Notes: generated by a model not told the origin, from the sequence alone. 64,000 nt of DNA from Gracilimonas sp. (GCF_017641085.1 NZ_JAEPPI010000002.1:310001-374000); one strand, 5' to 3'. Positions 33,798 to 37,600 are shown, counted from the stretch's first letter. Program-made: numbers and translations.

Positions 33798-34364
33798 ATG
33801 GATGAAAAACATTTTCACATAAAAAATATGGTGTGCAGTCACTGCGCGGAAGTTCTGGAAGAAAAGCTGCTGGCTGCTGATTTTGAGATTCAGAAAATCG
33901 AACTCGGACAGCTGACCTTATCACACCCGGTTACCGCAGATGAATACGAACGCCTGATTCAGGTAGTGCGCAACAACGGGTTTGAGCTGATTAACGACAA
34001 AGGCAGCCGGATTGTAGAGCAAATTAAACAGCTTATCATTCAGTTGATCCGCACCGACAAGGAGCTGGAGGGTAACCTATCTGCCTATCTTTCCAAAAAA
34101 ATTAATAAAGATTATCAGCAGCTCAGTCGGTTATTTTCCAATGTGGAGGGGAAATCCATTGAGCGGTATTACATCCTGCAGAAAATTGAGCGGGCCAAAG
34201 AGCTTATTGTTTATGGCGAACAAAGCCTCACTGAAATCGCCTATGAGCTTGGATATAGCAGTCAGCAGCACTTCTCCCGACAGTTCAAGAAAGAAACCGG
34301 ACTGTCACCCTCTCACTTTAAGGACGTGAAGGAGAACAAACGCATCTCCATCGACAAGCTCTGA
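33798..34364 (+). CDS. HMA-like metal-binding domain fused to AraC-type regulator (copy 1)
   Basis: The ATG at 33798, with AGGG at 33791-33794, gives 188 residues; a longer frame (33720) adds an unlikely hydrophobic leader. The N-terminal ~70 residues look like an HMA metal-binding domain (HFHIKNMVCSHC, Cys13 and Cys16 in CxxC). The C-terminal ~85 residues are an AraC/XylS double helix-turn-helix (ERAKELIVYGEQSLTEIA, then SQQHFSRQFKKETGLSP). It is probably a metal-responsive activator of the ATPase gene 84 bp downstream. A paralogue lies at 37028-37600. Confidence 0.88.
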   Translation: MDEKHFHIKNMVCSHCAEVLEEKLLAADFEIQKIELGQLTLSHPVTADEYERLIQVVRNNGFELINDKGSRIVEQIKQLIIQLIRTDKELEGNLSAYLSKKINKDYQQLSRLFSNVEGKSIERYYILQKIERAKELIVYGEQSLTEIAYELGYSSQQHFSRQFKKETGLSPSHFKDVKENKRISIDKL

Positions 34365-34448
34365 CAAAATCCTGCACAAGAATTACACAATACTGCAATC
34401 CACCCGATGCAGATACCGCTATCTTGAGATCAAATTAACAGATATGCT

Positions 34449-36398
34449 ATGATCTCGTTCCTAAAAAAATACCGGGAGGTTGCTATTGCCTCCGTTTTCC
34501 TTATTGCCGCACTGATTGCCCAGCACGCTTTTACTTTTACCGGACAGGAATATGTATTCATATCCCTCTTTGTTATTTCATACCTGTTTGTAGGCGGGCC
34601 CGTTTGGATGAAAGCTTATCGGTCCATAAAAAAAGGAACCCTGTTCAGTGAGTTTTTCCTGATGGGTATTGCCACCGTTGGAGCTTTTGCTTTGGGAGAA
34701 TACGCAGAAGGCGTGGCGGTCATGCTCTTTTACATGATTGGAGAATATGCACAACACGGTGCGGTTACCAAGGCCCGCCATTCCATCCAAAAGCTGATTG
34801 AGCAGCAGCCTGATATTGCAACGGTAGAGCGGAATGGAGCAACCATCATGGTTCATCCCGGTCAGGTTGAAGTTGGGGATATCATTCAGGTGCGGCCCGG
34901 AGAAAAAGTACCGCTGGATGGTGAATTGCTCACCGAGAAGGCATCCTTTAACACTGCAGCCCTTACCGGAGAATCCAAACCTGTAAACCGAACTTCTGGC
35001 GAAGAAGTCTGGGCCGGCTCCATTAATCAGGACAGGCTTGTTCGCATCCGGGTAAACAGTGTATTTGAGGACACCAAGCTCTCCCACATTCTTGAAATGG
35101 TACAGGAGGCCGCCCAGCGAAAAGCCCCCACTCAGCGCTTTATGACAAAATTCGCCAAAGTGTACACCCCTATCGTTGTATGGCTGGCAGTTGCCGTCAC
35201 CTTTGTCCCTTATTTATTTGTGGAACAGTATGTATTTCAGGAGTGGTTCTATAAAGCCCTCGTTTTTCTAGTGGTTTCTTGCCCTTGTGGACTCGTAATC
35301 TCTATACCGCTCGGTTATTTCGGGGGAATCGGGGCCGCCTCCAGAAACGGTATTTTGCTGAAAGGCTCGGATTACCTGGACCAACTTCGAAAAATGAATA
35401 TCCTGTTTATGGATAAAACCGGAACGCTCACTGAAGGAACTTTTGAAGTGCAATCGGTGACCACCCATAATGGATTAACTGAAGCAGAGGTCGTTGCCTA
35501 TGCCGCCTCGCTTGAACAACATTCCACACACCCGATTGGCAAGGCCATTCTCGCATTTAAAAACGGGCAGGAACTGTTTGAAGTTGAGCAGCAACAAGAG
35601 ATTTCCGGAAAGGGACTTAAGGGGTTCATTAAACAGAAAGAGGTTTTAGTCGGAAATGCAGAATTGCTGAAAGAACGGGGAGTAATGGTAACTCAAGACA
35701 ACCTTTCTGAGCCTTATACCTTTGTCCATGTAGCGGTGGACGGAGAACATGCGGGAACCATCCGGATTTCCGATAGAATTAAGGAGGACAGTAAACAGGC
35801 TATTCAGGAGCTCAGGGAAAGGGGAATTCAGCGACTGGTGATGCTATCCGGTGATAATCCGGATGTTGTTTCGTTTATTGCTAACGAGCTGGGGCTTGAT
35901 GAATCCCACGGCGGATTGCTTCCCGATGAAAAATACAGCCTTGTTGAGCAGGCTCTGGGCAAAGGGAATACCGTCGGCTTTATAGGTGACGGGGTGAATG
36001 ATGCGCCGGTAATTACCCTGGCTGATGTAGGTATTGCCATGGGAGGAATCGGATCAGATGCAACCGTTGACACTGCCGATATCGTTATTCAAACCGATCA
36101 GCCTTCCAAAGTTGCCAAAGCTATCGACATCTCCCGGTTCACCCACAAGGTGGTCTGGCAAAATATCGTGTTTGCGCTGGGTATTAAAGTGCTGGTGATG
36201 GGACTTGCCGCCATAGGCCTGGCCTCTATGTGGGAAGCCATTTTTGCTGATGTGGGTGTGGCCCTTATTGCTATAGCCAATGCCATTCGTATTCAAAACA
36301 CTTTTTCTGAAGGGGGCTCCATTTTAGATTTGTTCAGGAAAAGCGATGAGGTGTCGGAACCAAAGATGGCTGCCGCTTCCTGTTGTGATGCCTGCTAA
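34449..36398 (+). CDS. Heavy-metal P1B-type ATPase, Zn/Cd/Pb-like, without N-terminal metal-binding domain
   Basis: This 649-residue pump has TGES (~174), the CPC motif (VVSCPCGLVIS, ~278-280), the phosphorylated Asp in MDKTGTLTEG (Asp322), STHPIGKAI (the P1B HP dipeptide) and GDGVNDAPV. Transmembrane segments near the C-terminus keep a Lys (GIKVLVMG) and an Asp (FADVGVALIAIANAIR) characteristic of the Zn/Cd/Pb (P1B-2, ZntA) class. No HMA domain precedes the first TM; the C-terminus ends in a Cys-rich AAASCCDAC. It is flanked by two HMA-AraC regulators. Confidence 0.93.
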   Translation: MISFLKKYREVAIASVFLIAALIAQHAFTFTGQEYVFISLFVISYLFVGGPVWMKAYRSIKKGTLFSEFFLMGIATVGAFALGEYAEGVAVMLFYMIGEYAQHGAVTKARHSIQKLIEQQPDIATVERNGATIMVHPGQVEVGDIIQVRPGEKVPLDGELLTEKASFNTAALTGESKPVNRTSGEEVWAGSINQDRLVRIRVNSVFEDTKLSHILEMVQEAAQRKAPTQRFMTKFAKVYTPIVVWLAVAVTFVPYLFVEQYVFQEWFYKALVFLVVSCPCGLVISIPLGYFGGIGAASRNGILLKGSDYLDQLRKMNILFMDKTGTLTEGTFEVQSVTTHNGLTEAEVVAYAASLEQHSTHPIGKAILAFKNGQELFEVEQQQEISGKGLKGFIKQKEVLVGNAELLKERGVMVTQDNLSEPYTFVHVAVDGEHAGTIRISDRIKEDSKQAIQELRERGIQRLVMLSGDNPDVVSFIANELGLDESHGGLLPDEKYSLVEQALGKGNTVGFIGDGVNDAPVITLADVGIAMGGIGSDATVDTADIVIQTDQPSKVAKAIDISRFTHKVVWQNIVFALGIKVLVMGLAAIGLASMWEAIFADVGVALIAIANAIRIQNTFSEGGSILDLFRKSDEVSEPKMAAASCCDAC

Positions 36399-36444
36399 AA
36401 TCTGGCTATAACGACCATGCCCTGGTTCATCTTTAAATTCATAT

Positions 36445-36522
36445 CTGGTTCAAGCGTCCGCTTGGACCAGAATGAAACCACACTTCATTTTTAAAATCAT
36501 ACATCTTACAAGCGGACGCTTG
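36445..36522. repeat. Two inverted palindromic sites between zinc ATPase and methyltransferase-like genes
   Basis: CAAGCGTCCGCTTG (36451-36464) and its exact reverse complement CAAGCGGACGCTTG (36509-36522) lie 44 bp apart in a 160-bp gap between convergent genes. Each is itself a near-palindrome with 6-bp arms. The first extends to a 26-bp imperfect dyad (36445-36470, with outer CTGGT and ACCAG arms). There is no T run, so a terminator role is weak. Operator sites or a folded RNA element are alternatives. Confidence 0.75.
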
Positions 36523-36558
36523 CACTATTTTATGAAGCTTGCACAATTTCAGATTTCA

Positions 36559-37020
36559 TCACACCCAGCGCCGTACTTTCTTCTTGTAATCCAGAAACTC
36601 ATCCCCAAACTTTTGCTCCATTACCTCTTCTTCAGACTTTATCTGAAACTCGTTCATATACCAGATGAAGCATGGAATGAACAGCACTGTAAGTAAATTC
36701 CCTAATTTAAACACAGCCGCACAAAGAATAAGAACCATCCCCAGATACATCGGGTTTCTTGTAAGGCGATAGATCCCTGACTTCACAAATGCAGAAGTAT
36801 CCTGTGGTTTATGCGGGTTTACGGTGGTTGATTTTTTACTAAACTCAATCACCCCCAAAAGAACTACCAGACCACCTGAAGAAATGAGCAAGCCATACAC
36901 CCATTCCGGAGTTTTTAGAACTAATGGCTCAAGAGTAAGCCAGCGATCTGTCAACCACATCAATACCACACACAGCAGGAACAGAAGAGCCGGGGGGATT
37001 TTCAGTTTTAACCCATTCAT
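36559..37020 (-). CDS. Isoprenylcysteine-methyltransferase-like (ICMT/PEMT-type) membrane protein
   Basis: The ATG at 37020 gives 153 residues; a longer form would run into the neighbouring regulator. The protein has about four hydrophobic segments, and the C-terminal half matches the ICMT/phospholipid methyltransferase SAM-binding pattern: GIYRLTRNPMYLGMVLIL and EEEVMEQKFGDEFLDYKKKV. It methylates an unknown, probably lipid-like, substrate. It starts 7 bp after the stop of the HMA-AraC copy 2 gene on the same strand, so the two form a probable operon in the metal module. Confidence 0.87.
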   Translation of the reverse strand: MNGLKLKIPPALLFLLCVVLMWLTDRWLTLEPLVLKTPEWVYGLLISSGGLVVLLGVIEFSKKSTTVNPHKPQDTSAFVKSGIYRLTRNPMYLGMVLILCAAVFKLGNLLTVLFIPCFIWYMNEFQIKSEEEVMEQKFGDEFLDYKKKVRRWV

Positions 37021-37027
37021 GGTAGTT

Positions 37028-37600
37028 CTAAATTTTATCAAGCGATTTGCGCTCCGGGTTTTGCAGTTTTTGGTATTCACTCATGCTCATCCCGGTTATT
37101 TCTTTAAACTGTCGCGATAAGTGTTGAAGGTTCTTATATCCTAACTGATACGCAATTTCGCTGAAGCTGAGATTCTCATACTCCACCAGTTCTTTGGCCT
37201 TTTCAATCTTCAGGCGGATAAAATATTTTTCGATCGTAATTTCTTCTTTCCGGGAAAAAACGCGGGATATGCTTGCATAGCTTTTGGTGAGTTTCTTAGC
37301 CAGGTAGTCTGATAATGAAGTCTCATCCGTTTTCAGCTCTCCCGAATCTACCCATTGAATCAGTGTTGTTTTCACCTTTTCCACTAAAATGGAATCTTCA
37401 TCCTTAATCAGGCCAAAGTTGAAGCGCTCCAGTTCTTTTTCAATCTCTTTAAGGGTGGGATGATCGCCCTGACGGGTTACTTCAGCCTTTCCAAGCTGAA
37501 CATGATCTACTTTAAGCCCCAGTGCCGTAAGCGCGGTTTCTATGACCATCTCGCAGCGGTCGCAAACCATGTTTTTTATATGCAGCGTCATTTTTTCCAT
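37028..37600 (-). CDS. HMA-like metal-binding domain fused to AraC-type regulator (copy 2)
   Basis: This 190-residue paralogue of the 33798 regulator has a nearly identical N-terminal motif (LHIKNMVCDRC, again Cys13 and Cys16) and the same layout. A middle connecting segment (SLSDYLAKKLTKSYASISRVF) precedes the AraC helices (KAKELVEYENLSFSEIAYQL and LQHLSRQFKEITGMSMSEYQ). Its final LDKI resembles the IDKL end of copy 1. It is on the opposite strand from the ATPase and precedes the methyltransferase-like gene. A metal-responsive activator role is inferred from domain content and location. Confidence 0.87.
   Translation of the reverse strand: MEKMTLHIKNMVCDRCEMVIETALTALGLKVDHVQLGKAEVTRQGDHPTLKEIEKELERFNFGLIKDEDSILVEKVKTTLIQWVDSGELKTDETSLSDYLAKKLTKSYASISRVFSRKEEITIEKYFIRLKIEKAKELVEYENLSFSEIAYQLGYKNLQHLSRQFKEITGMSMSEYQKLQNPERKSLDKI

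Follow-up and report, generated by a model that had tools for sequence, protein, structure and literature searches.

In a 64,000 nt stretch of DNA from Gracilimonas sp. (hereafter the window), two genes encode regulators in which a metallochaperone-like HMA fold is fused to an AraC DNA-binding domain. We consider it quite probable that the first of these, RegA, responds to Zn/Cd/Pb and activates the adjacent P1B-2 ATPase gene in class II fashion, and that the second, RegB, represents a separate, copper-associated type with the motif CDRC; this reading explains the observations best. RegA is encoded at 33798–34364 on the plus strand (188 aa; HMA fold at residues 1–66, linker helix at 68–85, AraC DNA-binding domain at approx. 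90–180) and is followed on the same strand by the ATPase (34449–36398, 649 aa). The RegB gene (37028–37600, 190 aa) and a gene for a PEMT/ICMT-like membrane methyltransferase (36559–37020, 153 aa, ATG at 37020), which stands between ATPase and RegB, are located on the minus strand. Both regulator genes are intact and of the lengths given in the preliminary description, which had missed the methyltransferase gene as well as the operator and promoter between RegA and the ATPase. A strong hairpin at 36438–36476 (plus strand; z −4.5), in the convergent gap 3′ of the ATPase, is a probable bidirectional terminator. The palindrome CAAGCGnnCGCTTG occurs twice in this gap (36399–36560): the copy at 36451 is part of the terminator-like hairpin, and the copy at 36509 is unexplained.

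The domain structure of the two regulators was assessed using profile searches and structural models. A C-terminal AraC domain was detected by Pfam (HTH_18, E 4e-20 in RegA and 1e-16 in RegB); the HTH_18/HTH_AraC domain is above cut-off in both proteins, all 44 homologues match it, and the MerR family is absent among the Pfam and NCBIfam rows shown for RegA and RegB. The HMA model PF00403, however, scored below its gathering cut-off of 24.8 bits (RegB 18.5, RegA 13.4), which is a threshold on sequence and not on fold, and was matched by only 4 of the 44 homologues at E 0.01. Since the Pfam HMA model stays under its cut-off, RegA and RegB are annotated merely as “AraC family”; plasmid records give homologues no label beyond AraC family or helix-turn-helix protein. 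A search of the PDB with the RegA sequence retrieved AraC domains plus some weak rows that look like chance matches, and no HMA protein.

The HMA-like start of both regulators is evident in AlphaFold2 models (mean pLDDT 90), where residues 1–66 form a ferredoxin-like beta-alpha-beta-beta-alpha-beta fold with the CxxC motif at the start of helix 1 (Cys13 and Cys16; helix at 14–26). In the RegA model, this part aligns with CopZ, Atx1, GolB and HAH1 (Z approx. 7, rmsd approx. 2 to 3 Å over 60–66 residues), and the remainder matches DNA-binding domains of the AraC type (Z up to 12). The refuting outcome named in the preliminary description, a fold other than HMA in the first 70 residues, is thus not what the models show. 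The motif reads CSHC in RegA (33834–33845, plus strand; CxHC type) and CDRC in RegB (37553–37564, minus strand), at residues 13–16 of each protein, and N10, M11, V12, C13 and C16 are invariant among the 44 homologues. Fold and position of the cysteines are therefore those of the HMA metallochaperones (CopZ, Atx1, HAH1; PF00403). Unlike these, RegA and RegB are fused to a DNA-binding domain, carry NMVCxxC in place of GMTCxxC and fall under the Pfam cut-off.

The ATPase passed the cut-offs of TIGR01512 (503 bits, cut-off 313.5) and TIGR01525. Reading its sequence, we found the catalytic motifs CPC (TM6), DKTGT and GDGVNDAP, the P1B-2 markers K in TM7 (GIKVLV) and DVG in TM8 (FADVGVA), and a C-terminal SCCDAC. 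It is a P1B-2 ATPase and is predicted to export Zn, Cd or Pb. No HMA match was found in a Pfam and NCBIfam search of the 649 aa protein, in agreement with the preliminary description of a flanked P1B-2 pump lacking an N-terminal HMA domain. It had also been suggested that the HMA domain of the sensor replaces the one missing from the pump. This was not supported, as 16 P1B-2 ATPases of Bacteroidota without an adjacent HMA-AraC gene look alike in having no HMA domain, and CopA-type ATPases beside HMA-AraC genes retain their own; a loss of the HMA domain from the ATPase due to its presence in the regulator was consequently rejected. The same pumps bear on a reading in which the HMA domain serves to relay metal, i.e., the regulator exchanges metal with the HMA-less ATPase as a chaperone would, with transcription control being secondary. 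As HMA-less P1B-2 pumps exist without such a regulator, and most family members adjoin CopA pumps with an HMA domain, often plus a separate CopZ-like gene, we judge a relay to be very improbable despite the CopZ/Atx1-like fold and the neighboring ATPase without this domain.

The HMA-AraC architecture is common in Bacteroidota and neighboring phyla. We sampled 148 genomes of the phylum and found a match at E 1e-10 in 94, the weaker of these matches being other AraC proteins. The co-occurrence with P1B ATPases raised earlier was found to be strong: in 44 genomes with full-length copies, a P1B ATPase is encoded within 4 kb of 41 of 85 HMA-AraC copies, where approx. 0.7% would be expected. The ATPase is on the 3′ side in 40 of these 41 cases and on the same strand in 37. 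Many other copies adjoin RND efflux genes. The genome to which the window belongs is Balneolaceae-like, with Balneola, Fodinibius and Gracilimonas as its nearest named relatives. It has four HMA-AraC genes, every one beside metal-export genes: besides RegA and RegB, one follows a CzcCBA-type operon (L097) and one a CusCBA-type operon (L096). At both of the latter loci a P-II-like gene (L097:7887-8207 and L096:10157-10552) is positioned after the CusA/CzcA-type pump gene and before the HMA-AraC gene, and a P-II-like gene in this RND context is also present in relatives.

The CxxC motif was lost in 19 family members, in which the sequence often reads IKYMVSLRC; the first cysteine is often serine, or the whole motif is replaced. 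Metal-export genes are found within 5 kb of 104 of 128 copies with CxxC compared to 1 of 19 without (raw p 1e-10). However, the loss requires approx. five changes on the tree (at least three when counted by supported branches), which leaves 2–4 independent comparisons, too few for significance. The link between the loss of CxxC and the loss of metal neighbors is therefore suggestive, and it supports a metal role of the motif short of proof. CxxC-less members away from metal genes (L132, L135, L149, L153, L155, L157, L158, L169, L182, L187 and others) apparently are regulators turned to another signal.

Next to the regulator genes, we detected a putative operator that recurs across the family and is new here. 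It consists of two AATnnTRYA half-sites 21 bp apart and is usually located just 3′ of the regulator gene. In the window it covers 34366–34400 (plus strand), with the half-sites AATCCTGCA from 34368 and AATACTGCA from 34389. The 84 bp gap between RegA and the ATPase contains CAAAATCCTGCACAAGAATTACACAATACTGCAATC, an element present between the CxHC regulator and the ATPase in nearly all Balneolaceae loci and retained even where this gap has expanded to hundreds of bp. For CxRC regulators, AATnnTRYA pairs at exactly 21 bp were found on the 3′ side in 19 cases, compared to 0.05 expected. A matrix trained on the loci and then used to score them gave sites above threshold in 76 of 167 family members, a rate inflated by scoring the training loci themselves; about half of the members show none. 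The 64 kb window holds one site (score 30.0; next best 10.1), and elsewhere in this genome good sites are found 5′ of a P1B-4 ATPase (32.5) and of a czcCBA-type operon (19.7). A CopZ-CopA-DUF411 locus of this genome (L099:3959-6988) has neither an adjacent HMA-AraC gene nor an operator above score 9. Before the 16 regulator-less P1B-2 ATPases no comparable site was found (best 8.7); the operator thus follows the regulator and not the pump, which argues against a general P1B-2 promoter element. Operators 5′ of the regulators were rejected as well, as an alignment of RegA upstream regions revealed no clear site and the sites are enriched 3′ of the genes.

The −7 element TATCTTGA (TATCTTG; TAnnTTTG-like) of the ATPase promoter is located at 34420–34427 (plus strand), 19 nt past the operator. 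In Bacteroidetes, a TAnnTTTG box is known at −7; a TTTG near −33 was described in B. fragilis and not found in F. johnsoniae (PMC9723704, PMC7366714). Across the family, TAnnTTTG starts 19 or 20 nt past the site in 28 of the 76 cases, with at most 0.2 per position in shuffled sequences, and the box played no part in finding the operators. Given this spacing, the promoter-proximal half-site is predicted to cover the −33 region, an arrangement expected for class II activators. Known AraC/XylS activators have the same AraC domain with two HTH motifs and the same direct half-sites two helical turns apart, the promoter-proximal one at the −33/−35 region; for RegA, binding is predicted. Unlike those activators, RegA and RegB have an HMA fold of approx. 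66 residues as sensor instead of a cupin or other ligand pocket, and the predicted ligand is a metal.

An operator adjoining a promoter would also suit a metal-responsive repressor or dual regulator, where apo-RegA silences the ATPase promoter until metal releases it, and many efflux regulators, such as ArsR, CsoR and CopY, are derepressors. Nevertheless, the site stops 19 nt short of the −7 box, so the two do not overlap, the fixed spacing between site and box is expected of an activator touching the polymerase, and the −33 region of the promoter in the window shows no TTTG. In addition, most AraC-family proteins activate. Taken together, repression by RegA is quite unlikely.

Activation by RegA most likely proceeds as follows. 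RegA would be cytosolic, and its N-terminal HMA domain would bind a soft divalent metal (Zn, Cd or Pb) via Cys13 and Cys16. Metal loading would stabilize a RegA dimer; in the simplest case the metal would bridge two HMA domains, as it does in dimers of the Atx1 type. The dimer would set its two AraC domains on the half-sites 21 bp apart. Because the promoter-proximal half-site is at the −33 region, RegA would recruit RNA polymerase in the manner of a class II activator, and the metal would then be exported by the P1B-2 ATPase. The fold, the invariant CxxC, the linkage and the operator 5′ of the ATPase, all established computationally, support the earlier proposal of a sensing HMA domain within a transcription activator of this pump.

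The residue before the second cysteine differs between groups of regulators with different neighbors. CxHC regulators (His) are encoded beside HMA-less P1B-2 ATPases or else beside RND and P1B-4 genes, and CxRC regulators (Arg) beside P1B-1 copper ATPases; we counted 20 His regulators with P1B-2 and 54 Arg regulators with P1B-1, and RegB orthologues are the only Arg regulators with P1B-2. In a tree with the motif columns omitted, RegA falls within a CxHC clade of 30 rows (support 99). As the CxHC group is one clade, its association with P1B-2 ATPases counts as one evolutionary event and not as repeated co-variation. RegB, which is 39% identical to RegA, groups with CDRC regulators of other Balneolaceae, of which one (L143) shares its operon with genes for PEMT, a cation transporter, CopZ, CopA and a DUF411 protein, and another (L141) adjoins an RND gene. 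By this grouping, RegB most likely is a copper-type regulator sitting beside a Zn/Cd module and not a duplicate of RegA, and the metals sensed by RegA and RegB are probably different. The preliminary description had suggested that the pair may have arisen by duplication; the tree, which places RegA in the CxHC clade and RegB with the CDRC group, lends no support to a local duplication.

RegB probably governs its own operon with the PEMT/ICMT-like gene, which begins 7 bp after the RegB stop and is, therefore, probably co-transcribed with it. A PEMT gene is also encoded 3′ of RegB in L129, L130 and L143; in the first two, which are congeners of the strain analyzed here, a TauE/SafE-like permease gene is located between RegB and PEMT (L129:4316-5571, L130:4391-5607) and is absent from the window. 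No clear operator for RegB was detected in the window, and in the two congeners a site is located 5′ of RegB itself (scores 16.8 and 18.5). The latter position argues against a two-input switch, suggested by the flanking positions of RegA and RegB, in which both would control the ATPase in response to two metals, as do the single operator in the window and the RegB orthologues, which head an operon with PEMT and CopZ-CopA or adjoin an RND pump. On the other hand, the arrangement with two regulators is kept in both other genomes of the genus examined, and L207 has two HMA-AraC genes in tandem before a CopA gene; all in all, such a switch appears unlikely, and separate functions of RegA and RegB remain our preferred reading. 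The tandem pair (L207:5059-6312) is directly 5′ of the CopA gene.

CueR/ZntR (MerR family), CsoR, CopY and ArsR/SmtB are cytosolic regulators of P1B ATPases as well; these work-alikes have another metal site and another DNA-binding domain, and no sequence relationship to RegA or RegB was seen. Metal regulators of the MerR, ArsR and CueR-like types are usual in model bacteria. The archaeal regulators CopR and CopT, which control a copper ATPase, also join a small metal-binding domain to a DNA-binding domain, but these are TRASH and Lrp-type HTH domains, compared to HMA and AraC in RegA and RegB. CopR of Pyrococcus is described in PMC7830388. Copper genes of the flavobacterium Bizionia argentinensis (Bacteroidota) were surveyed in 2024; in that study, MerR and CopY homologues were rejected as copper sensors due to a missing binding site and two ArsR-SmtB proteins were kept as candidates; the CopA genes are not arranged beside chaperone and regulator, unlike in other Gram-negatives, and AraC is unmentioned in the text (PMC11213822). 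We found no published account of the HMA-AraC architecture in an open-access library, and an earlier description may exist. In our estimate, there is about an even chance that HMA-AraC proteins are an undescribed family of metalloregulators and main cytosolic Cu and Zn/Cd sensors of Bacteroidota, that they act on a conserved operator of 21 bp spacing, and that His or Arg ahead of the second cysteine distinguishes Zn/Cd from Cu types, respectively. If so, a classical transcription activator acquired a metallochaperone fold as its sensor, and Bacteroidota would gain a readable metal regulon and a candidate metal-sensing switch missed by standard annotation. The putative operator permits direct target prediction in any family member.

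Finally, related His/Met-rich, secreted-looking proteins of approx. 150 aa are encoded at L211:1577-2032, L096:14516-14968 and L141:5982-6548, near metal genes or operator-like sites.
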